Assembly (NCBI RefSeq): GCF_015207505.1
Contig: NZ_JADEWT010000069.1
Span: 1-33,872 of the forward strand
DNA: 33,872 nt
Direction of reading: 5' to 3'
Origin: Tychonema sp. LEGE 06208
Lineage (GTDB): Bacteria; Cyanobacteriota; Cyanobacteriia; Cyanobacteriales; Microcoleaceae
Part shown: positions 3,224 through 29,362 of the stretch, in pieces
How the letters are laid out: each line of letters starts with the position of its first letter
Numbering within the stretch: the stretch's first letter is position 1
Position numbers and translations under genes: made by a program
Notes under the pieces: model-generated
The model's input: the letters and a program-made list of their open reading frames with translations, nothing else
Database searches by the model: none
What the model was told of the DNA's origin: nothing

Positions 3224-3451
3224 ATGACAACACAACTGCTAGAAATAGAGGGAACTTGGGAAGAAATTCTCGCCCAATCAGCCAAATTTGCAGGCTACCG
3301 AGTTCGTGTTATTGTTCTTGCTGAGGAACCGCTGAAGTCAGCCGAAGAGTGTTTTCGTCAAGGATGGCACGAAGCAATGACAGGGCACACTTTACCGCTT
3401 TCTGAACTGTGGGAGGGAATTGATTTCGATGAATCTGTCGATCGGATATAA
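3224..3451 (+). CDS. second, orphan antitoxin paralogue, 75 aa
   Basis: About two thirds of residues match the antitoxin at 2594 (shared LLEIEGTWEEILAQ, FAG-RVR-IVLA, SELW-GID). It starts 17 bp after the toxin stop. No toxin follows: an overlapping ATG at 3430 opens MNLSIGYN and then runs straight into a dispersed palindromic repeat. This suggests a duplicated module whose toxin was deleted or replaced by the repeat. It might still bind the neighbouring toxin and act as an extra antidote. Confidence 0.75.
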   Translation: MTTQLLEIEGTWEEILAQSAKFAGYRVRVIVLAEEPLKSAEECFRQGWHEAMTGHTLPLSELWEGIDFDESVDRI

Positions 3452-3460
3452 TCATCGAAA
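3430..3460 (+). pseudogene. possible remnant 5' end of a lost toxin gene
   Basis: The ATG at 3430 overlaps the orphan antitoxin by 22 bp, mimicking the overlap in the intact module. Only about five plausible codons (MNLSI) remain before the sequence becomes palindromic-repeat DNA. The remnant is too short to prove homology, so this is an inference from gene arrangement. Confidence 0.3.
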
Positions 3461-3473
3461 ACACGGCAACGGA

Positions 3474-3577
3474 GGACACGGCAGTGCCGTGTCCCTACCC
3501 CAAAATAATCATGAGCACTCGATGAGAGATGTCACCATTGCCAGATTAATTGTAGGGAAACGGCACTGCCGTGTCCT
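3474..3577. repeat. dispersed palindromic repeat element, copy A
   Basis: Two palindromes of the form GGACACGGCA-N-TGCCGTGTCC (3474-3494, and a slightly divergent one at 3556-3576) flank a spacer with CCCCAAAATAATC and GATTAATTGTAGGG. The same two-palindrome unit with the same spacer words recurs at 13764-13866, and single palindromes occur at 13880-13900 and 18497-18517. It is therefore a dispersed, probably mobile, non-coding repeat. Each palindrome can fold into a strong hairpin. Confidence 0.85.
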
Positions 3578-3590
3578 GATTTTGGGTAAT

Positions 3591-3620
3591 ATAACTTCCG
3601 GCTGCATAGGTATTGTTCAA
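3591..3620. repeat. dispersed 30-bp repeat word, copy 1
   Basis: A stretch containing CTTCCGGCTGCATAGG and TATTGTTCAA is nearly repeated at 12508-12539 (GTTTCCGGTTGCATCGG, TATTGTTCAA). Both are intergenic. It is probably a remnant of a common non-coding repeat family in this genome. Confidence 0.6.
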
Positions 3621-3628
3621 GATTTTGG

Positions 3629-3644
3629 AAGGACTAAAGTCCTT
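3629..3644 (-). terminator. hairpin after argS
   Basis: AAGGAC-TAAA-GTCCTT forms a 6-bp hairpin 16 bp past the argS stop. No strong T-tract follows in the argS direction, so termination is only a suggestion. The hairpin may also be part of a common repeat. Confidence 0.35.
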
Positions 3645-3659
3645 ACTACAAACTTTAGA

Positions 3660-5417
3660 TTACATCCTCTCCAATACCTTAATCCCCAACAATCCTAAGC
3701 CCAACTTCAAAGTCCTCGCCGTCAAATCGCACAAAATCAACCGCGAAGTCCGCAGCGGTTCCTCGGCTTTCAACACCGGACATTGCTCAAAAAATTGATT
3801 GAACTTTTGACTTAATTCAAACAAATACTGACAAATTCGATTCGGCAACAAGTCGCCGTCCACAGCATTGATAACTTCATTGAACTGCAATAAATGCTTT
3901 GCCAATACTAACTCGGCATCTGACTGCAAAATTACTTTTGCACCTGCATCTAAGTTATCAAAATTAATTTCTCCTTTGCGGCGAATTCCCTGCACGCGCG
4001 CGTAAGCATAGAGCATATAAGGAGCGGTATTTCCTTGCAATGCGAGCATTTTGTCGTAACTAAATACATAGTTGCTGGCGCGGTTTTGACTCAAATCTGC
4101 ATACTTAACTGCACTCAAACCAACTACGCGACCTACGTTAGCTATAAACTCTTTAGTTTCCTGTCTTTCTTCTCTGACTAATCTGTCTTCCAAATCTTGG
4201 GTGGCGCGGACAATTGCTTCGTCTAGCAAATCCTGCAAGCGCACAGCTTCTCCTGAACGGGTTTTTAATCTTTTGCCTTCTTCTCCTAAGACTAAACCAA
4301 AGGGAACGTGGACAATTTCGACATCTTCGGGAATCCAACAGGCTTTTCTGGCTACGGCAAATACTTGGGCGAAATGGTTGGCTTGTCCTGAATCTGTGAC
4401 GTAAATAATGCGCTTTGCATTATCGTTTTGGATGCGGTAGCGGATGGCTGCTAAATCTGTTGTGGCATAGTTGTAGCCGCCGTCGGTTTTCTGGACGATT
4501 AAAGGTAGTGGTTCGCCTTCTTTGTTGGTGAAACCGTCTACAAAAACGCATTTCGCGCCGTCGCTTTCTACTAACAAACCTAAGTTTGTTAAATCTTCGA
4601 CTACTGCGGGTAATAATGGATTGTAAAAGGATTCGCCGCGTTCGGTTAGTTTGATGTCTAGTAAGTCGTAGATTACTTGGAATTCGCGGCGGGATTGATC
4701 GCACAGCAGTTTCCAAGCGCGGCGGGTGTCTTCTGCGCCTGCTTGCAGTTTTACTACTTCTTGGCGGGCGGTTTCTTTGAAGGTTTCGTCTGCGTCGAAG
4801 CGCTGTTTTGCTTGGCGGTAAAATGCCACTAAATCGCCTAAATCTAGAGCGTCAGCGGTTGTTAATGCTTCGGGGTGAACTTCGCGCAAGTAGGCGATCA
4901 GCATCCCGAATTGGGTGCCCCAGTCGCCGATGTGGTTGATTCTGAGTACGTCGTGGCCTTGAAATTCGAGGATGCGGGCGATCGCATCTCCGATGATTGT
5001 CGATCGCAAATGTCCGACGTGCATTTCTTTGGCGATATTCGGACTGGAAAAGTCGATCGCCACTCTCTGAGGCGTTTTCGCCGGTTCAATCCCCAAACGG
5101 GTGTCGGCGGCGATCTCACTTATTTGCGCTTCCAAATACGCCGGTTTGAGCTTCAAATTGATAAAACCGGGCCCGGCGATTTCTGGGGTTTCGCAGATGT
5201 CGGCGATGTCGAGGTTTTCGATGATTGTAGAGGCGATCGCCCGCGGGGGCTTGCCTAACTTTTTGCCCAAACTCATCGCTGCATTGCACTGAAAGTCCCC
5301 AAACTTGGGGTTTCCCGCAGCGGCTAGCATCGGATCTGTACCCGCATAACTCTCGCCGAATGCGGAGGTGAAGGCTTTTTCAAATCTGGTTTTTAACTGT
5401 TGGGCGATCGAGTTCAT
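3660..5417 (-). CDS. argS: arginyl-tRNA synthetase, 585 aa
   Basis: This class I synthetase charges tRNA-Arg with arginine in the cytoplasm. The N-terminal additional domain (ArgS-specific tRNA-binding) covers about residues 1-110. The HIGH-type signature is HVGH at 133-136 in [14 protein letters not shown]. The KMSKS-like loop is degenerate ([10 protein letters not shown]), as usual for ArgS. The C-terminal anticodon-binding DALR domain is seen in [23 protein letters not shown] and onwards. Length matches the family (~580 aa), and both ends look intact. It starts at ATG 5417 with a modest TTAAAG upstream. It is monocistronic as far as visible. Confidence 0.97.
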
Positions 5418-6936: not shown

Positions 6937-8328
6937 ATGGTAAAACTGACACCGAACCCCAGCTTTAGTTTAACGATTCGCGTTGCTCTGCCGAACCAGC
7001 CGGGAATGCTCGCTAGCGTCACCAGCGCGATCGCCTCTGTCGGCGGCAACTTCGGAGAAATCGACTCGATCGAGCAAACCCGCGCCACTACAGTTCGCGA
7101 TATCACCGTCGATGCTTCGAGCACCGAGCACGCCGAAGAAATAGTCCAAGCCGTGAAAGCGCTACCGGATATCAAAGTGCTCGACGTGTACGATCGCACT
7201 TTCCACTTGCACCGAGGCGGAAAAATCAGCGTAGAAAGCAAAATTTCCCTCAAACGCCAGTCTGATTTGGCAATGGCCTACACCCCCGGAGTCGCCCGCA
7301 TTTGTACTGCGATCGCCAAGGATCCGCAACAAGTTTACAACCTCACAATCAAACAAAATACTGTTGCCATTGTTACCGACGGCAGCGCAGTTTTAGGACT
7401 GGGAAACCTGGGGCCAGAGGCCGCCCTGCCGGTCATGGAAGGCAAAGCTATGCTGTTTAAAGAATTTGCTGGAATTGATGCCTTTCCTATCTGTTTGAAT
7501 ACTCAAGATACCGAAGAAATTATTCGCACGGTGCAGAATATTGCCCCGGTTTTTGGGGGAGTGAATCTCGAAGATATTTCTTCTCCCCGCTGTTTTGAAA
7601 TCGAAGCAAGATTGCGGGAAACTTTAGATATTCCAATTTTTCACGACGACCAGCACGGCACTGCAATTGTCAGTTTGGCAGCACTAATTAATGCCTTGAA
7701 AATTGTCAAAAAAACCCTCGCCCAAGTGTGTATCGTGATTAACGGTGCCGGTGCGGCCGGAGTCGCGATCGCCCGCTTGCTGCGCCAAGCAGGTGCCGAA
7801 AATATCATCATGTGCGACTCCAAAGGTATCCTCTCCAAAGACCGCACGGACATGAACCCAGAAAAACTAGAATTTGCTGTGGCCAAGGGCGGTACTTTGG
7901 CAGATGCGATCGCCGGTGCGGATGTATTTTTAGGCGTTAGCGCCCCCGGCGTGCTGACGCGATCGATGGTGCAATCGATGGCCGAGAATCCGATTGTTTT
8001 TGCAATGGCAAATCCCATTCCCGAAATTCAGCCAGAATTAATTATGGAGGATGCGGCAATTATTGCTACCGGACGCAGCGACTACCCAAATCAAATTAAC
8101 AATGTTTTGGCATTTCCGGGGATATTTCGAGGTGCTTTGGACTGCAAAGCTAGCACGATTACGACGAGTATGTATTTGGGTGCAGCTTACGCGATCGCCT
8201 CTTTAGTCAGCCCTGAACAACTTGACAAAGAACATATTATACCATCTGTTTTTGACGAAAGAGTTGCGATAGCAGTCGCCGATGCAGTGCAGTTGGCCGC
8301 CCGCGCCGAAGGTATCGCCCGCGATTAA
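6937..8328 (+). CDS. NAD(P)-dependent malic enzyme with N-terminal ACT domain, 463 aa
   Basis: It oxidatively decarboxylates malate to pyruvate plus CO2. Residues ~9-85 form an ACT domain (VALPNQPGMLASVTSAIASVGGNFGEID), normally a small-ligand sensor. The catalytic region follows: AYTPGVARI with Tyr115, TDGSAVLGLGNLGPEAALPVMEGK with Lys170, the metal-binding FHDDQHGTAIV, and a Rossmann motif INGAGAAGVAIARLL near residue 266. ANPIPEI near the C-terminus is also typical. The ACT fusion is known in cyanobacteria and some other bacteria. The start at 6937 has no strong Shine-Dalgarno; the ACT fold begins right after it, so it is probably right. Confidence 0.93.
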   Translation: MVKLTPNPSFSLTIRVALPNQPGMLASVTSAIASVGGNFGEIDSIEQTRATTVRDITVDASSTEHAEEIVQAVKALPDIKVLDVYDRTFHLHRGGKISVESKISLKRQSDLAMAYTPGVARICTAIAKDPQQVYNLTIKQNTVAIVTDGSAVLGLGNLGPEAALPVMEGKAMLFKEFAGIDAFPICLNTQDTEEIIRTVQNIAPVFGGVNLEDISSPRCFEIEARLRETLDIPIFHDDQHGTAIVSLAALINALKIVKKTLAQVCIVINGAGAAGVAIARLLRQAGAENIIMCDSKGILSKDRTDMNPEKLEFAVAKGGTLADAIAGADVFLGVSAPGVLTRSMVQSMAENPIVFAMANPIPEIQPELIMEDAAIIATGRSDYPNQINNVLAFPGIFRGALDCKASTITTSMYLGAAYAIASLVSPEQLDKEHIIPSVFDERVAIAVADAVQLAARAEGIARD

Positions 8329-8385
8329 TTGAACGAAGTTCCGCAACGGATTCGATCGCAGATTTAACTGATGTAACCCATAGAG

Positions 8386-8414
8386 GGAAGTTCGGCTTCC
8401 TTAGTCGAACTTCC
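8386..8414 (+). terminator. hairpin after the malic enzyme
   Basis: GGAAGTTCG at 8386-8394 pairs with CGAACTTCC at 8406-8414 around an 11-nt loop, 58 bp after the stop codon. A T-tract is lacking, so it is a stem-loop of terminator type with moderate support. Confidence 0.45.
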
Positions 8415-8612
8415 TTACCGAGTTATAAAAGTTACAATAAACTAGATAATAAAGATATAATTGAATCGGAGCGTCTCTGTTTTACATTTAGAGTGCTGTC
8501 CCGGCTCGCGAGTTTTACAATGAATGCACGCGCGGAACACTCTCAATAAAAAAATGCTTTTTACAAAGCCCCATATGCTCCCAATTGAATCACCCAAGTC
8601 TAGCTAAGTCAG

Positions 8613-11600
8613 ATGCAAAGCCAGTTAGGAGAAGACCGGAGCGATCGCAGCAACCGCAACTTATTAGAACTAAGTCCTATCGGGCTAGCATTGTGCCGCG
8701 CGGACGGGACTTTTTTGGACGTAAATCCAGCTTTTGCAAGTACGATCGGGCGCACAGTTACAGAAACTCTCAAGCTCAACTACTGGGAAATTCTGCAAAC
8801 AGATTGCGCTGACACAAAAAAAAATCGAGAAAGTCTTACTAAAAATAGCTCCACGCGATCGTGCGCCGCAGCATACAAACATAAAAATAACTATCTCGTA
8901 CCCGTGCGAGTTTCCCAGCGGACAATTGAAACAGAAGGAGAGTCCGCGATTTGGCTGAGTGCGGAAGAAATTTTTAATATTCAGAATGACAATAGCGAGC
9001 CGCTGGAATCAACAGATCGCAGCAATTTAAATATAGAAAAATTGCTCGCAAAGCAGACTGCTGAACTGGCCAAAACTCAGGAACTACTCCAACAAAAAAA
9101 CGCCGAACTCAAAGTGACAAAATCGCAACTGCACCACCACAGTCAGATTTTAGACCAAATTCGAGAATCGGTGATTTGCACCGATATCGACGGGTATATT
9201 ACCAGTTGGAATCAAGCCTCCGAAAGGTTATACGGATATCAAGAAGATTGGGTAATCGGAAAGCATATTTCTATAATTTACCCTCCCCAACAGCAGGAAT
9301 TTTTATTAGATCAAGTCATCAAACCCCTAAAAGAAAAAGGTTCTCACGAAGTAGAAATTATTACCTGTCGCCAGTCTGGAGAACAATTTGAATCGCACCT
9401 GTCCCTTTCGCTGCTAAAAGACAAGACGGGAGAAGTTATTGGGATGGTTGGTTATTTGACAGATATTAGCGATCGCCAAGCTTTAGAACAAGAATTAGCA
9501 CAAAAAAAAGCACTGTTCGATAGTTTTTTGCAGGAGGCACCGGCGGGAATTTGCATTTTTGACTCGCAACTGCGGTACGTGCAAATCAATCAATTTTTAG
9601 CACAAATAAATTGCCTCACTGCCGCAGAACACCTCGGCAAGACTCTACGCGAAATAATGCCGCATATCGCTCCAATTCTAGAGCCTTTGTACGCCGAAAT
9701 ATTGAGAACGAAAACTCCCTTAATTAACATCGAGACGAGCGCTGAAAATCCCAGGCTGCCCGGGGTTGTGCTACACATGACAGGCTCTTATTTTCCTCTG
9801 TTAGACAAAGACGGTGAGGCGATCGGCATCGGTGCACTCGTCATTGACATTAGCGATCGCAAACAAGCAGAAGCAGCACTGGAAAAAAGCGAACAGCTTT
9901 ACCGCACGATGGCAAGCAACATTCCTAACGGTGCAGTAATGCTGTTTGACCAAGAAATGCGCTACACCCTGGTAGAAGGTACAGAATTAGCAGAAATGGG
10001 GCTTTCTAAAGAATTGATGGAAGGCAAGACAATCTGGGAAGTATTCGAGTCCGATTTTTGCCGTGCCATCGAACCGAATTATCGGGCGGCGCTAGCAGGA
10101 GAAACCGTTGTTTCAGAATTTACTTACTGCGATCGCATTTACCTCGGTTACACTTTGCCAGTCAGAAACAAGCGACAAGAAATCAGCGGCGGATTGTTAA
10201 TGGCTCAAAATATTACCGATCGCCATTTAGCAGAAGAAGCCCTCCGGGAAAGCGAGGAAAAATACAGGTGTATTGTCGAGACAGCCGATGAAGGAATTTG
10301 GACGATCGATGCGGAGGGTAAAACTACTTTTGTTAACCAAACAATGGTCGATATGCTCGCCTGTACGGTAGAGGAAATGCTCGGGCAGTCGCTATTTGCT
10401 TTCATGGATGCAGAAGGCATGGCGATCGCCGAAGCCAATCTCAACCGCCGCCGTGAAGGAATTAGCGAAAAGCACGATTTTAAGTTCCTTCGCCGAGACG
10501 GCAGCGACTTGTGGGCGATGGTTTCTACTAATGCCTTCTCAGACAAAGAAGGGCGCTATGTCGGGGCTTTGGCAATGGTTGCCGACATTACCGCTCGCAA
10601 GCAAACAGAAGCGGCATTGAAACAGTCGGAAGCCAAATTTCGAGCACTCTACGAATTAACCACTATAGCTGTTTTTATGTCCGATGAAAATAGTATTTAC
10701 GATGTCAATAACGCCACATTAAAACTATTTGGATATACTTGCAAAGAGCAGTTTATTGGCAATCATCCGGGTAAATTGTCGCCGCCTTTTCAACCCAATG
10801 GCAGAGATTCTTCGACATTGGCGAGCGAAATGATGGATCTCGCCTTTGAGCGCGGAAACCACCGTTTTGATTGGCTGCACCGGCGCTTAGACGGTACTGA
10901 GTTTCCTGCAGAAGTTGTGCTGACAGCCATCGAAGTGGGAAATCAAAAACATATCCAAGCAGTCGTCCAAGATTTAACCGATCGCAAAGTGGCCGAAGAA
11001 ACATTAGTGCGATCGGAACAATCCCTGAGACAGCAAGCTCAGCGAGAACAACTGTTGAATCAAATTGCCAACCAAATCCGCAATTCTTTGGATTTAGACA
11101 CAATTTTAGTAACCGCAGTTCAAGAAATTCGCAATCTTATCCAGCTAGATTGGTGCATCTTCATTTGGTATCGCCCCAACAGCAATCCTCCGTTTTGGGA
11201 AATAGTTTGCGAAGCGAAGAATGCAGATTTGCCGAGTTTGTTGGGTACTTATGCTGTAGATGACAAATCTAGTGCCGCAGTGCAGCAGATTTTGGGCAGA
11301 AAAATTATGCGAGTTGATGATGTTAGCTTGTTTGAAGATGTAGAAGTGCGCGCAATTTTTCAGTTATTTAAAATTAACTCAGTGCTGTCGCTGCCGGTTC
11401 ATACTGCTTCCGGCGATATAGGCACGATTAGCTGCTATCAGGCTGTGTCCGCGCGCCATTGGAGCGATTCGGAAGTCGAGCTGATGCAAGCGGTAACTGC
11501 TCAAATTGCGATCGCGATCGACCACGCAGAATTATACACCCAAACCCGTACAGCGGCTGAATTAGCTAGAGCTCAAACTCAACACCTAGAACAAACTTTG

Positions 11601-24047: not shown

Positions 24048-25253
24048 TCAAAAGGTCTCGTTTCCAGTTGGATCTGGGATTGGGTCGCTCAGACCTAGCT
24101 TCTGATAGCGATAGGAAGCGACAACCGGGTAAACAATGCCACGCAGCCGATTTATTGCACCAACCGGACGATGGACTGCTAGACCGTTCCAAGGAGAAAA
24201 TCGCAGGTTTTCACAGAAATCGTATTGTTTCTCAAAATTAATGATTTGATGCTTGACGGTGAGACGACCGACTGTGAAAAACGGAGATTCGCTTTCCTTC
24301 CAGAGAATCGTGGTATCGTCGATCGACATCTTAGAGTTAGTTTGGAATTGAATGCCAAAGTCCCAACAAAATTGAGCATCAGGTTGGAGAAGGGCTTGAA
24401 TGATGTCATCCCGGTAGTAATTGTCGGGTTGACTCGGATCTAAACCGAGAGAAGAAGCGCGATCGCTAAAAGGAAGTTTAGGAATCCCAGGTCGAGACTG
24501 AGATAAAATCTTGTTGTGCGGCGGTTGGCCTGAAACCGGAGTAAACGCATATTTAATCACAGCCGGATATTCGACAGGAACTAAACTCGTTTTGGAAGCA
24601 TCAAAATCGGAATTGAGACCCAAAGCAGAGGCTGAACTGCTCCAATATCGTTCTGTTAGTAAACTTTTCGGAGTCGAACTCGTACCCTTGAGGAGTGCTA
24701 AAAATTGCCTCGGATGTTGATACAGCCACTTCTTTGTTGCCTCCTTCGACTCAACGACGGCAGAAAAAAAGCCGTAGTAATCTTTGATGTTTTTAACAAA
24801 GAAAAACGCTGAATTGTGAACAATCAGATCCTGGGTTTTCGACTCATAGCTTTGCACCAGCCGTTCCCCTTCAACTCCCATCACTTTCACTGCCATTGAG
24901 CGGGTGTCTGGTTCGCAATCATTTTTGGGTTGGAAAGCTCCGTTGGCAAATCGCAGCCAAACAGGATATTGTTTGGGCAAAGACAGCAAGCCTTGCTTAA
25001 GGGAAATAGCATTGAGTTGGGAAGAGGTCAACGAGGCGCGTTTGTTCAACTCGCGTTTAATCGCTTCCTCATCAAAGTCAAAGATTTCGAGAATTCCTTT
25101 AACAGCAGCGTGGCTTTTGGTGTGAGTATCTCGCAGCGCCCGTTCCTTGTCCTTATAAAGATTATCCATGCGGATCTTGGTTTGTTCGACCAGGCGATCG
25201 CAATATTCGCCTTCATTCTGTTCGGGATATTCTGTAAACAATTTATTGCTCAT
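24048..25253 (-). CDS. catalase-superfamily haem protein (y4iL-like), 401 aa
   Basis: The catalase-like fold is indicated by a distal-site RDTHTKSH (His44 as likely distal His), the block RFANGAF to DTRSMAVKVMGVEG, an Asn in VHNSAFFFV matching the distal Asn, and a C-terminal HRPVGAINRLRGIVY with the R-x-x-x-Y pattern of the proximal Tyr haem ligand. It is shorter than true catalases (~480+). Relatives of this superfamily convert fatty-acid hydroperoxides (allene oxide synthases). It starts 23 bp after the COX-like gene ends, with AAGG just before ATG 25253, so the two form an operon and its substrate may be the product of that enzyme (inference). A longer start at 25292 overlaps the upstream gene and is less likely. 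Confidence 0.85.
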   Translation of the reverse strand: MSNKLFTEYPEQNEGEYCDRLVEQTKIRMDNLYKDKERALRDTHTKSHAAVKGILEIFDFDEEAIKRELNKRASLTSSQLNAISLKQGLLSLPKQYPVWLRFANGAFQPKNDCEPDTRSMAVKVMGVEGERLVQSYESKTQDLIVHNSAFFFVKNIKDYYGFFSAVVESKEATKKWLYQHPRQFLALLKGTSSTPKSLLTERYWSSSASALGLNSDFDASKTSLVPVEYPAVIKYAFTPVSGQPPHNKILSQSRPGIPKLPFSDRASSLGLDPSQPDNYYRDDIIQALLQPDAQFCWDFGIQFQTNSKMSIDDTTILWKESESPFFTVGRLTVKHQIINFEKQYDFCENLRFSPWNGLAVHRPVGAINRLRGIVYPVVASYRYQKLGLSDPIPDPTGNETF

Positions 25254-25276
25254 ATTTACCTTGATGCGTTTGCTGA

Positions 25277-28063
25277 TTAAACGGGTTTCCAATTGTAGCG
25301 GTAAAACGAAATTCGATAATTTTGACCTTGAGGAATGTTGCGGTGCACTACCTCAGAAAGCGTTTTGGTATTGTGAATAATTTCCCAGCCCACAGGCGAA
25401 AAAGTTTCTGGATTGAAGATGTTTTCTGCTAATAAAGGATTGGTGAATGCTTGAGAAAACGCATCAATTCCGATTAATCGTCCCACTAAAGGAGGTAGGG
25501 CTGAGTTGGGACGCAAATCTTCGGCATAGAGTCCGACATAAAGCTCAATATTGTCTACGTGTCCGTACAAACTTTTTAGTTCTCGTTGAACTCTTTTATT
25601 GCCACTAATCTGGGCGAAATCGGTGACGCGGGGATACTTGCACAACTCACGATAATCGTTGTAGCTTCTCAGTTTTGATTGACGAGCCATGCGAATGCTG
25701 GCTAACTCGGTTGGTAACAGAAATTCAGGCGTATTGAATAAACTCAGTTGCGCGGCGGGTTGGGAACAACTTTCTTCAAATATGCCTCCTAACCCCTTGC
25801 TGATAATCATGTTGTTGTTCCACATAGAGGCAGGCATGGGTAGTGTCTGCTCGTTGTGAATGAGAGTATCAGGCAACATACTGTGCCAGCGGTATACCAA
25901 ACTAAATTCTACCGACATCCAATTATGGCGATACCATTTTTCATTAGTGAAGGCCTGTGGATCGGTGAAGAATTGGAAGTGATAGGGAGTAATGTGGTTG
26001 ATGTAATCTTCTAACACAATCCTGAGAAATTCAACCACTACAATGTTTCTGGCAGTTTGGAACAGACGTTCATCATCCCAGGCTGGATAGTGTTCTGCTA
26101 AGATGTCGCACACGCGATTGTGTTCTCTCAAGCAAAGAACGTTCAGCATGACATAGCCAATTTGCACGTTTGCCCGTTCTAATTCAATCCCCATCGCGAA
26201 TAATTTTTGTTTTTTTTCGGGAGAGAATGTCTCGGATTTTGGGATGGAATTTTCGGTGTAAAGATGAGGTAATTCTGCAAATTCTTCTTTAGCTCGTCCA
26301 TCCTCATCGTAGTAAAACGGAGGATATTCTTCGCCATTAATAAATTGGCTTTTCATCTTGCCGCCTTTGTGCGATCGCAGCATCTCTGTAATCTTTGGGT
26401 TCAGCCCATAGACATTACACAGATCGATATGGTGGTTGGAACTATTTTTACGGTGATCGTCGCGAGCTGTACGCAGAAAGCTATCAGTGAACCATTGGAC
26501 AAAATAGGGAAACATCAGTGAAGATTTGGGCGAGTATTGTGTCTCCCCGTCTTTGCGATACAAAATTTCCAAATCCTTAATCGGCGGCAGATTTTTCTCA
26601 AACTCTTCGGTAGGTGCTAAATTAATGCCGACGTAATTTTCATTAGTCAATGGTTTCCAATCTAAAGGCGGCAACTGGAGTCCAGAGTATGAGCGATCGA
26701 TCAATGAATCCCAAGATGTGTAGGGAGACATAGTGCTAAACTGATAGGGACGAACCGGAATCTTATTGATGGCATTGTTGATCAGCGTTTTATTGACTTT
26801 TTTCGCAAGACCTGAATTGTTTTGAATAAAGCTCCAAATTGGCTTTAAGCCAGTTAAAGCTGCCGTCTCCAGTTTGTTTTTAAATCCGTCCCGTGAAGTA
26901 TCTCTTTTGCTTGCCATGATGGTTTTTCTTTCTCGGTATTTGTCGGTTCTAGGTGGTGATGCTGCTAATTTTTCAGATTCTCGGTATTGCTCGGTTCTAG
27001 GTGGTGATGTTGCTAATTTTTCAGATTGTGATGCAGTCTTTTCAACCTGCTGGATGGAATCAAGTTTTGGGAGATGTCGTTGTAGATTTTTGGGGCGGTA
27101 GTCCTGGCGGGTTTGCAATCGCTTGATCGTGCTTTCATGGAGTTCTTCAATTGCATCGCTCACTTCACGCAACTTGATTCCTGCTAATTTGAAAACCCCT
27201 GGATCGTTCTTAAAGTCACACTCATAATTAGGATTGATACCTGTTGGAATGACACTAGGATCGAATTCTAGCCCAAGTCCCAGTTTACGGGTTGAATCCA
27301 ACATCCACTGCAAGGCGGCATCTGATAACCCACTGTATTCTTTCGTTCCACCGCCTACGCAGCTATGTCCGCCGGGAAACCAAACTTGAATTACGCGCTG
27401 GTTCTCAGTATCAGGATGCTTTTTCATGGGAGTTACGTCGAAAGCTTCGCGGATTTCGTCGATCGCCACGGCGTGCAAGGCATTCTGAATCCCTTTATTT
27501 AAAGTCGTGTCGTGAAATCTGTAGCGCTTGTTGAGTTGTTCGTGAACCTGCTTGAAGGCAGGTACACTAGGAATTCCTAGGGAACCGACGGTATCGAAAC
27601 AACCAATCAAGGTAATCGGGACGCGATCGCCATAGGTGTCGCGGTAATCGGCAGCCATTTTATCCCGCGGTTTAACTTCTCGATGACGGTAAAGCTCGTA
27701 AGCTTCGTGGGTTTTAGTCACGTGAGGGCGTGATAGAAGACCGGCGCAATAAATCATTCCCGCTAGACTTCTGACGGTGTAAGCACCGCGACTGAACCCG
27801 AATAGATAAATTTCGTCACCATCTACATAGTTGAGACTGAGGAACCGATAGGCATCCTCAATGTTGCGATCGATTCCGAGTCCCGTGGCTCCGCCTAAAA
27901 TCTTTTGACTCTCGGTGCCAATGCCTTCGTCATAAAATACGACCTGTGGAACTCCATCACTAGCGATCGGTTTCACAGATTGAGCCAGCTTAACTATATT
28001 GCTTGGGTAAGGACTCGATAGCTGTTGCCAAGTTCCATCACAGCAAATAACCAGACGTTTCAT
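25277..28063 (-). CDS. DUF2235 lipase-like hydrolase fused to a cyclooxygenase-like haem peroxidase, 928 aa
   Basis: Residues 1-~310 are a DUF2235/Tle1-like alpha/beta hydrolase: VICCDGTWQ at the start and the nucleophile elbow GFSRGA with Ser91. After a ~70-residue linker with a tandem repeat, residues ~383-928 follow the prostaglandin-endoperoxide-synthase fold: YTSWDSL (COX YISWESF), DLCNVYG, GEEYPPF, LREHNRVCDIL, and VYRWHSMLPD, where Tyr724 and His727 align with COX Tyr385 and the proximal haem ligand His388. AFSQAF aligns with COX Ser530, and LYGHVDNIELYVGL with the COX helix ending in YPGL. The distal Q-x-x-x-H is Gln523...Asp527, so the distal His is lost. The start is ATG 28063 after GAGGTGG. 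The likely role is to free a fatty acid and oxygenate it (inference). Confidence 0.88.
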   Translation of the reverse strand: MKRLVICCDGTWQQLSSPYPSNIVKLAQSVKPIASDGVPQVVFYDEGIGTESQKILGGATGLGIDRNIEDAYRFLSLNYVDGDEIYLFGFSRGAYTVRSLAGMIYCAGLLSRPHVTKTHEAYELYRHREVKPRDKMAADYRDTYGDRVPITLIGCFDTVGSLGIPSVPAFKQVHEQLNKRYRFHDTTLNKGIQNALHAVAIDEIREAFDVTPMKKHPDTENQRVIQVWFPGGHSCVGGGTKEYSGLSDAALQWMLDSTRKLGLGLEFDPSVIPTGINPNYECDFKNDPGVFKLAGIKLREVSDAIEELHESTIKRLQTRQDYRPKNLQRHLPKLDSIQQVEKTASQSEKLATSPPRTEQYRESEKLAASPPRTDKYRERKTIMASKRDTSRDGFKNKLETAALTGLKPIWSFIQNNSGLAKKVNKTLINNAINKIPVRPYQFSTMSPYTSWDSLIDRSYSGLQLPPLDWKPLTNENYVGINLAPTEEFEKNLPPIKDLEILYRKDGETQYSPKSSLMFPYFVQWFTDSFLRTARDDHRKNSSNHHIDLCNVYGLNPKITEMLRSHKGGKMKSQFINGEEYPPFYYDEDGRAKEEFAELPHLYTENSIPKSETFSPEKKQKLFAMGIELERANVQIGYVMLNVLCLREHNRVCDILAEHYPAWDDERLFQTARNIVVVEFLRIVLEDYINHITPYHFQFFTDPQAFTNEKWYRHNWMSVEFSLVYRWHSMLPDTLIHNEQTLPMPASMWNNNMIISKGLGGIFEESCSQPAAQLSLFNTPEFLLPTELASIRMARQSKLRSYNDYRELCKYPRVTDFAQISGNKRVQRELKSLYGHVDNIELYVGLYAEDLRPNSALPPLVGRLIGIDAFSQAFTNPLLAENIFNPETFSPVGWEIIHNTKTLSEVVHRNIPQGQNYRISFYRYNWKPV
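26931..27026. repeat. 48-bp in-frame tandem duplication in the hydrolase-peroxidase linker
   Basis: Two copies (26931-26978 and 26979-27026) differ at a few bases and encode SEKLATSPPRTEQYRE and SEKLAASPPRTDKYRE. The unit is 16 codons, so the frame is kept. It sits just before an internal ATG (26915-26917) that could be the old start of a separate peroxidase gene. Confidence 0.92.
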
Positions 28064-28090
28064 GTTCCACCTCAAAAGCTTTCACTCGGC

Positions 28091-29362
28091 CTAGCGTGCA
28101 TTGCAACGCATCTTATCAGTTGAGTAGCTGCTTGACACTCCTCGGTCTGAAGACGCGAGGATTCTTGGATCAATCAGTTGATTTGCTCGTTGATGCTGCC
28201 ACCAACGAGTAGAGATCGGTTTCCAAGCGTTAATTTCGGTGTGTCCCACCGTATTTAAAGTGATTCCTGCACGGGCTTTCAAACCTTTTCCCAAAATGTT
28301 AATTGTGGCGTTACGATCCCGATCCAATCTCGTACCGTAACCGCAAATATGGGTGCGAGTTGAAAGTATTTTTTTGAGAGTATTGCCACAGTTTGAACAG
28401 TCTTGAGAAGTGTACTGAGGTGCAACAGCAATTACTGTTCTGTCGTACAGTTTTCCAAAGCATTCTAACCATTGTGCAAATTGTGACCACGCTGCATCAC
28501 TAATTCGCAACGCAAGCTTATGGTTTTTCACCATATTCCGCACCTGAAGATCTTCGTTGGCTACAAAATCGCTAGATTTTACCACGCCGGACGCCGTCTT
28601 AATGGCGAAGTCTTTGCGCTGCCTGCTGACTTTCAGATGCTTTCTTCCTAACTTGTTGAGCGCTCTTCTTCGATTGCTAGAACCTTTCTTCTTTCGAGAA
28701 ATCCGCTTCTGCAATCTTTTCAAAGCTTTTTCACTTTTACGAAGATAGCGATGGTAAGACGGTTGCCAACCATCGCTATCTTCGTAAAAGTGGTTCAATC
28801 TCAGATCTATCCCCATAGCTTTACCATTGGGAATAGGCTCCTCTTTTCGCTCCACGTTAATACATAATTGGGCATAGTAGCCGTCGGCACGACGCACAAC
28901 TCTGATTCGTTTGATCTCGTCAGGTGCCGAGAAATGCAAATCCCGATTACCGATCAACTTAAACTTCCCAGCAGCAAAACCGTCTTTAAATGTCAGACAT
29001 CTTTTGTCGGTAGAAAGTAGCCATCCTGACGTTTTGTATTCGACCGAACGAGTGTGTTTCTTGAAAGGCGGGTATCCCTTTTTTCCTGGTTTCTTGGCTT
29101 TGCAATTAGCCAAAAAACGTTGGATAGCAAAAATGGCACGTGCGGCAGAAGCCTGACGTGCAATCGAATTAGGCTTACCTGCCCCTTCAAACTCTTTTGC
29201 CATAATGGCGCATTGTTTGTACAGGTAAAATAACTTAACCCCTTGATTCTCTGTCCAATACCTAAGAGTTTTATTTCGGACAAATTGAGCCGTCCTAATC
29301 ATCTCGTCAATGACTCGGTATTGCTTCGCTTTGGCTTTCAACTTAAACTCTAATGCGATCAT
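28091..29362 (-). CDS. tnpB: TnpB RNA-guided endonuclease (IS200/IS605 OrfB type), 423 aa
   Basis: The N-terminal half has typical TnpB blocks (QASAARAIFAIQRFLANCK, PGKKGYPPFKKH). The RuvC residues are Asp186 (AMGIDLRLNHF), Glu270 (VANEDLQVRNMVKNHKLA) and the Asp in LDRDRNATINIL (~349). The zinc finger has CSNC (322-325) but its second half reads ICGYGTRLD with only one Cys (340), so one ligand appears lost. No TnpA is present, so it is a solo element. The frame runs through the predicted right end (TCAA at 28132-28135) into flanking DNA, so the last ~13 residues are host sequence. TnpB proteins cut DNA guided by the omega-RNA from the element's right end. Start ATG 29362. Confidence 0.9.
   Translation of the reverse strand: MIALEFKLKAKAKQYRVIDEMIRTAQFVRNKTLRYWTENQGVKLFYLYKQCAIMAKEFEGAGKPNSIARQASAARAIFAIQRFLANCKAKKPGKKGYPPFKKHTRSVEYKTSGWLLSTDKRCLTFKDGFAAGKFKLIGNRDLHFSAPDEIKRIRVVRRADGYYAQLCINVERKEEPIPNGKAMGIDLRLNHFYEDSDGWQPSYHRYLRKSEKALKRLQKRISRKKKGSSNRRRALNKLGRKHLKVSRQRKDFAIKTASGVVKSSDFVANEDLQVRNMVKNHKLALRISDAAWSQFAQWLECFGKLYDRTVIAVAPQYTSQDCSNCGNTLKKILSTRTHICGYGTRLDRDRNATINILGKGLKARAGITLNTVGHTEINAWKPISTRWWQHQRANQLIDPRILASSDRGVSSSYSTDKMRCNAR
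28112..28260 (-). ncRNA. predicted omega-RNA (reRNA) scaffold and guide at the tnpB right end
   Basis: In TnpB elements the 3' end of the gene and right end form a scaffold whose last hairpin is followed by ~16-20 nt of flanking DNA acting as guide. Here the hairpin near 28139-28158 is followed by TCAA and then GCAGCTACTCAACTGATAAG (28131 down to 28112). The 5' limit is arbitrary. Confidence 0.45.

Follow-up and report, generated by a model that had tools for sequence, protein, structure and literature searches.

A two-gene cyanobacterial locus joining a lipase-like hydrolase to a haem dioxygenase, and its proposed route from membrane lipid to a C8 volatile

Two adjacent minus-strand genes in a 33,872-nt stretch of DNA from Tychonema sp. 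LEGE 06208 (contig NZ_JADEWT010000069.1 of assembly GCF_015207505.1; the whole stretch is referred to here as the window) probably encode, with a likelihood that we put at about two in three, a three-step pathway leading from membrane lipid to a C8 volatile through a lipase, a 10S-dioxygenase and a hydroperoxide lyase. The first gene (ATG at 28063, TAA at 25277, 928 codons) specifies a protein of 928 residues in which a Tle1-like hydrolase is joined to a haem dioxygenase of the cyclooxygenase (COX) family. The second, 401 codons long, lies 23 nt downstream (gap 25254..25276, minus strand), runs from an ATG at 25253 to 24048 and specifies a catalase-related protein of 401 residues. An initial annotation had placed two genes 23 bp apart at these coordinates, and had described them as a fusion of a Tle1-like hydrolase with a COX-like peroxidase followed by a protein of the catalase superfamily. 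The coordinates are correct, the fusion is borne out by Pfam matches (T6SS_Tle1-like_cat, E 2.9e-81, in the N-terminal third; An_peroxidase, E 3e-51, in the C-terminal half), Ser91 within GFSRGA, Tyr724 and His727 lie at the positions given for them, and the superfamily of the second protein also holds, on a weak Pfam match. The locus is situated on contig C198 of a draft genome (G000, 6.55 Mb, 232 contigs, completeness given as 100), in which the peroxidase and Tle1-like families each produce a single match, both being the fusion gene. None of five proteins tested received a name from NCBIfam at E 0.01.

The N-terminal part of the fusion (residues 1 to about 334; 27062..28063, minus strand) is an alpha/beta hydrolase of the Tle1-like family PF09994. 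A full catalytic triad, on which the initially proposed pathway depended, is present in it: alignment of homologues identifies Ser91 (27793-27791) within GFSRGA, Asp157 (27595-27593) within FDTVG and His233 (27367-27365) within GxHxCVGGG, and the three residues are invariant in 45 of 45 aligned hydrolases. Domain match and motifs together thus place this part among the Tle1-like lipase domains. A weak alignment with PDB chains 9j3f and 4o5p (whole-sequence E 0.0033 and 0.028, respectively) takes in the motifs of Asp and His and, separately, that of Ser, and a one-sequence search with the hydrolase finds 9j3f at E 0.048. The former is a Tle1 phospholipase domain protein; the latter is listed as uncharacterised, and we take it to be a Tle1 as well. 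The type VI sheath family PF05943 has no match in the 232-contig draft, while the same search matches E. coli among 14 controls; a reading of the hydrolase as a type VI secretion effector was rejected, as no sheath gene was found in this genome.

The C-terminal part (residues 384-928 and the stop codon; 25277..26914, minus strand) matches the haem peroxidase family PF03098, and COX-2 is, by sequence, the best relative of solved structure for the whole fusion (E 3.6e-64) and matches the dioxygenase part alone at E 1.1e-64. The nearest characterised relative known to us is the 10S-dioxygenase of Nostoc punctiforme; the 543-residue homologue in strain NIES-2108 (locus L128) has 59.4% identity to the window domain over 520 aligned positions. 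Tyr724 (25894-25892), His727 (25885-25883) and Tyr687 align with its Y342, H345 and Y305, i.e. the catalytic tyrosine, the proximal histidine and the central tyrosine. At the positions of three residues typical of prostaglandin G/H synthases the window protein departs from the mammalian pattern: the distal His207 is replaced by Asp527 and Ser530 by Ala868, both Asp and Ala also being found in the NIES-2108 protein, and an Ala occupies the column, in the alignment with COX-2, of what we take to be Arg120. Cyclooxygenase is therefore used here as the name of a family and not of an activity. Site residues of the N. punctiforme 10S-dioxygenase NpDOX, an enzyme of 542 residues, have been printed with their numbers (PMC13049297). 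The NIES-2108 protein carries F143, Y305, I306, T310, Y342, G469, I483, A487 and Q490 at those same numbers, with F147 and H345 placed according to their spacing. The window dioxygenase retains 10 of the 11 residues mapped in this way, the exception being G469, replaced by Leu850. Judged by its sequence, the window oxygenase is no prostaglandin cyclooxygenase and is a divergent member of the cyanobacterial 10S-dioxygenase kind. The initial annotation had placed the motif AFSQAF at the Ser530 site, but the site residue is Ala868 and not the serine of the motif (correspondence according to PMC13049297).

The catalase-related protein (24048..25253, minus strand) is predicted to be a fatty-acid hydroperoxide lyase. 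Its Pfam Catalase match (E 1.5e-05) reaches 24.7 bits against a cut-off of 25, i.e. 0.3 bit below. A genome search with this family recovers an ordinary catalase, located on contig C34, but not the window gene. A phmmer search with the protein alone returned only a chance Caveolin match (E 0.041), and a profile was needed. The best PDB match of that profile is coral allene oxide synthase (cAOS), of which the proximal Tyr353, Arg360 and Arg102 are conserved in the 1u5u alignment as Tyr375, Arg382 and Arg101. The segment R41-D-T43-H44 and Asn147 were matched by eye, from motif and position, to distal Arg64, Thr66, His67 and Asn137 of cAOS, no residue alignment spanning them. The catalase fold of the cAOS and cHPL enzymes is recognised in the window protein, and the assignment as a hydroperoxide lyase would follow from the Nostoc pair, with whose NIES-2108 representative it is 65% identical. 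In the catalase-related proteins of that locus (8626-9807) and of L072 (8528-9709) the corresponding motif reads RDTHSKTN, compared to RDTHTKSH in the window, so the second histidine of the window motif is not conserved.

The initial annotation had envisaged that allene oxide synthesis follows an oxygenation of the cyclooxygenase type, in keeping with the rank of COX-2 among solved relatives of the fusion and with that of the coral enzyme among PDB matches of the catalase profile, each being the best. Neither activity is upheld. Ala, Asp and Ala are found at the positions of Ser530, distal His207 and Arg120, and the homologous pair that has been characterised consists of a 10S-dioxygenase and a 10S-hydroperoxide lyase (PMC9579011, PMC13049297), which leaves this version very improbable.

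Evidence that the three parts belong together comes from gene order. Among 162 confirmed dioxygenase loci, the best 80 were named; these may include two loci of one genome, partners counted as missing include genes cut by contig ends, and a hydrolase was counted as present even where its frame is shortened (L115, L135 and, owing to a contig end, L071). Hydrolase, dioxygenase and catalase are three separate genes in the same order in 34 of the 80 loci, including that of NIES-2108, and the hydrolase is fused to the dioxygenase in a further 5, with the catalase following in 4 of these. The remainder comprise hydrolase and dioxygenase without catalase (1 locus), dioxygenase with catalase (10), dioxygenase with a more divergent catalase (5), and dioxygenase with neither partner (25). 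The linkage expected of homologues is thus present in 39/80 loci, in which hydrolase and dioxygenase are either adjacent and accompanied by the catalase, or fused. A close catalase homologue follows the dioxygenase in 48 of the 80 loci, and the window gene likewise has its catalase-related neighbour on the same strand. In loci with separate genes, gaps extend up to 304 nt on the hydrolase side and up to 648 nt on the catalase side, and 28 of 35 hydrolase-dioxygenase gaps are shorter than 110 nt. Order and strand are retained, for instance, in Nostoc, Anabaena, Tolypothrix, Oscillatoria, Argonema and Microcoleus. These data support the oxylipin operon of hydrolase, oxygenase and hydroperoxide-processing enzyme that had initially been proposed. 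The three-gene cluster of NIES-2108 suggests that the characterised N. punctiforme pair, the dioxygenase of which we take to come from strain PCC 73102, is also located beside a hydrolase.

Co-occurrence was assessed in 388 genomes, sampled evenly across the order, with cut-offs of E <=1e-60 for the dioxygenase and E <1e-100 for a close catalase. The dioxygenase was found in 56 genomes, among which are kept weak partial matches (G603, G606), a fragment (G584) and an interrupted gene (G099), and the close catalase in 45, out of 97 with a match at E 0.001. Both were found in 42 genomes (in two of these on different contigs), the dioxygenase only in 14 and the catalase only in 3 (Fisher p 1.9e-40, kinship ignored). 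The hydrolase adjoins or is fused to the dioxygenase in at least 33 of the 56 genomes (6 fused, 11 adjacent with stops between, 16 as separate matches); this lower bound comes from a hand tally of coordinates of a whole-fusion search in which at most two candidates were scored per genome.

The two domains of the window protein are joined by a linker of about residues 335-383 (26915..27061, minus strand), delimited from the ends and starts of unfused homologues. Its last residue, Met383, stands where unfused dioxygenase genes have their start codon, and within the linker there is a 48-bp tandem duplication (26930..27027, 2.0 copies, 94% matches). Two relatives in other assemblies (L068 and L069) have a fused frame of identical length, 2787 nt. 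When the three closest fused loci are compared in pairs, the hydrolase has a ratio of non-synonymous to synonymous substitution rates (dN/dS) of 0.08-0.23 and the dioxygenase one of 0.06-0.08, compared to 0.3-2.0, on few changes, for linker residues 331-383, which are little constrained; for the catalase it is 0.14-0.18 in the two pairs computed. Hydrolase, dioxygenase and catalase parts are thus under purifying selection among these loci, and the shared 2787-nt frame with low dN/dS in both domains indicates that the continuous frame is not accidental.

Among 29 genomes of the genus, the one-frame fusion is found in 6 (that of the window included), and 4 have separate adjacent genes with another type of dioxygenase. 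In G099 the genes are separate and an insertion breaks that of the dioxygenase, a further genome has the hydrolase alone, and 17 gave no match. Matches in this sample include contigs of Microcoleus vaginatus HSN003 and of other Microcoleus, and the nearest of the 80 named loci (best of 162) are those of Lyngbya sp. CCAP 1446/10 and of a cyanobacterial metagenome-assembled genome, from which we place the organism with the Microcoleus type. A second group of fused frames is 71-76% identical to the window. The dioxygenase tree places the fusions of the window, L068 and L069 together with unfused genes of Hassallia and Nostoc, and the other three fused rows with unfused genes of Argonema and an uncultured relative, a single clade of all six fusions being rejected (approximately unbiased (AU) test, p 2.3e-41). 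On the hydrolase tree three changes are required, and a single clade is again rejected (AU p 3.6e-05). Linkers differ between the two groups, and that of the second resembles, by eye, the leader preceding the start codon in unfused Argonema genes. Since both domain trees reject a single clade and the linkers differ, the fusion arose at least twice in cyanobacteria.

We propose the following scheme. The Tle1-like hydrolase domain would release C18 fatty acids, such as oleic and linoleic acid, from membrane glycerolipids. By analogy with the characterised homologue, the fused haem dioxygenase would then insert O2 by means of a tyrosyl radical at Tyr724 to form a 10S-hydroperoxide, and the catalase-related protein, again as in its characterised homologue, would cleave this into 1-octen-3-ol and a C10 oxo-acid. 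Many cyanobacteria would carry out these steps with three adjacent genes in this order, the first two having presumably become one in certain lineages of Microcoleus type. The simplest course would be that the hydrolase gene lost its stop codon, with the former intergenic stretch then read in frame. The fusion may place substrate release beside the oxygenase. Volatile pathways of plants and mushrooms likewise begin with a lipase, and this reading would explain why a hydrolase gene is kept upstream. More tentatively, at a little under even odds in our estimate, a single polypeptide would both release fatty acids from membrane lipid and oxygenate them on the spot, as the result of a fusion repeated in cyanobacteria, with the neighbouring lyase completing the pathway.

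Several points weigh against this scheme. At only 59% identity to the N. punctiforme type, the window dioxygenase could differ in regiospecificity, and the haem residues of cAOS are stated to be identical in catalase (PMC5617202), so that they alone do not separate the window protein from a catalase. It is conceivable, if unlikely, that window-type dioxygenases have shifted in specificity towards another carbon or fatty acid, and that their catalase partners, acting as lyases or as allene oxide synthases, yield a different product. The replacement of Gly469 by Leu, the 65% identity of the catalase to the NIES-2108 protein and the presence of both dioxygenase types in one genus, beside related hydrolases and catalases, fit such a shift as well as the 59% figure does, whereas the conservation of 10 of 11 mapped site residues, including the equivalents of Ile483 and Ala487, does not.

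Since 25 of the 80 named loci have neither partner and 40 have no adjacent hydrolase (contig ends truncate some of these), and since a close catalase is missing from 14 of the 56 genomes with the dioxygenase, neither partner is obligatory. The lipase-first step is one that we infer, and it has to be set against the half of the named loci in which no hydrolase is adjacent. Adjacent genes fuse easily, which makes fusion alone a weak proof of channelling. A dioxygenase and lyase acting as in Nostoc, beside a hydrolase that supplies no substrate and shares only their regulation, for example in membrane turnover under stress, would account for these loci, with fusions as near-neutral losses of stop codons. 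We give this alternative a low probability. The short gaps (28 of 35 below 110 nt), across which a frame-keeping loss of the stop is easy, and the little constrained linker agree with it, as do the 40 loci mentioned. It is harder to reconcile with the conservation of order and strand across genera such as those listed above, with the persistence of the fused frame in a second group at 71-76% identity, and with the single case of a Frankia locus in which an unrelated patatin-like lipase lies about 2 kb upstream of the dioxygenase.

Finally, the old start codon is kept as Met383, so internal initiation is possible, and an AlphaFold2 model of the fusion (pLDDT, the predicted local distance difference test score, of 49) gives no domain arrangement. 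A continuous frame from which the dioxygenase is also, or only, made separately at Met383 appears to us somewhat less probable still than the two preceding alternatives: the ancestral start is still a methionine in the window, L068, L069, L087 and L088, but L083, with TSSKRD at this place, is fused without it. The three-step pathway outlined above remains the reading that we prefer. The more tentative single-polypeptide version, if true, would represent a one-operon prokaryotic counterpart of the lipase, oxygenase and hydroperoxide lyase cascades by which plants, diatoms and mushrooms produce wound volatiles. The genes could also provide a simple model of oxylipin volatile release on cell damage, and a compact enzyme set for the production of 1-octen-3-ol. 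The conserved and repeatedly fused lipase gene is a direct candidate, open to genetic tests, for the fatty-acid source of the 10S-dioxygenase pathway, and comparisons of COX-like enzymes gain a group with an attached lipase.

Other features were noted around these genes. In the window, an IS605-type OrfB gene (PF01385, PF07282; 28091-29362, same strand) ends 27 nt before the ATG of the fusion, and nucleotide similarity to L068 and L069 ends at 28131. The shared leader is therefore only 68 nt long (28064-28131), and the promoter of the operon may have been replaced. At locus L045 (G099:C1), an insertion from about 7029 to 8509 interrupts the dioxygenase gene; it contains a frame of about 415 residues that is transposase-like by eye. 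The two dioxygenase types of the genus are seen on comparing L063-L066 with the window and L061, the proteins being 77% or about 55% identical to that of the window; the adjoining hydrolases (67-82%) and catalases (72-74%) do not split the way the dioxygenases do, and the middle gene may have been exchanged within the genus. A second, divergent catalase-related protein, 25-30% identical to that of the window, follows the dioxygenase in L096, L104, L105, L111 and L134, and catalase-related genes seem broken or shortened in L095 (8584-9747) and L098 (7352-8044), both loci having a long dioxygenase frame. In the Frankia locus (L145, Candidatus Frankia californiensis), an opposite-strand frame lies between the patatin-like phospholipase gene (3445-4686) and the dioxygenase homologue. 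In L035 (7005-10207) and L036 (8411-12508), genes for a DUF4331 protein and for a GMC oxidoreductase come after a dioxygenase without hydrolase or catalase neighbours, perhaps as part of another oxylipin pathway.

The closest known system is that of N. punctiforme, in which NpDOX (UniProt B2J5P4) makes 10S-hydroperoxides and a catalase-related 10S-hydroperoxide lyase cleaves these to 1-octen-3-ol, both being attributed to Brash et al. 2014 (J Biol Chem 289:13101; via PMC9579011, PMC13049297). The window proteins belong to the same families, the gene order on one strand is the same in NIES-2108, and all site residues but one are shared; NpDOX, however, is unfused, and the window dioxygenase is joined to a hydrolase and differs in about 40% of its sequence. 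Although the cyanobacterial pair has been called a fusion protein of 2012 (PMC11719350), in NIES-2108 the dioxygenase and the catalase are encoded separately, with 248 nt between their genes. The window hydrolase has its catalytic domain and triad motifs in common with Tle1 type VI phospholipase effectors (PF09994), but the window genome is without a detected sheath, and in relatives the hydrolase is a stand-alone gene of about 335 codons beside a dioxygenase. Mammalian COX-1 and COX-2 share the sequence family and the equivalents of Tyr385 and His388 (Tyr724 and His727), and differ at the Ser530, distal His207 and Arg120 positions. In the coral fusions of allene oxide synthase or hydroperoxide lyase with lipoxygenase, a catalase-related haem enzyme acting on a fatty-acid hydroperoxide is likewise coupled to the producer of its substrate (PMC5617202), but there the oxygenase is a lipoxygenase and the second and third steps are joined, whereas the window joins the first and second. 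The fungal 10-dioxygenase CcDOX1 also makes a 10S-hydroperoxide for 1-octen-3-ol (PMC9579011), but is fused to a P450-related domain, and no lyase is known from that mushroom. The excerpts of PMC9579011 and PMC13049297 do not address the source of fatty acids for the cyanobacterial pathway, and titles and abstract openings of the literature matches listed, which do not cover the original 2014 description, contain no report of a lipase in connection with it. The dioxygenase and lyase steps, in view of the characterised homologous pair, are an already known pathway; what the present locus adds is a conserved lipase-like gene, fused to the dioxygenase more than once.

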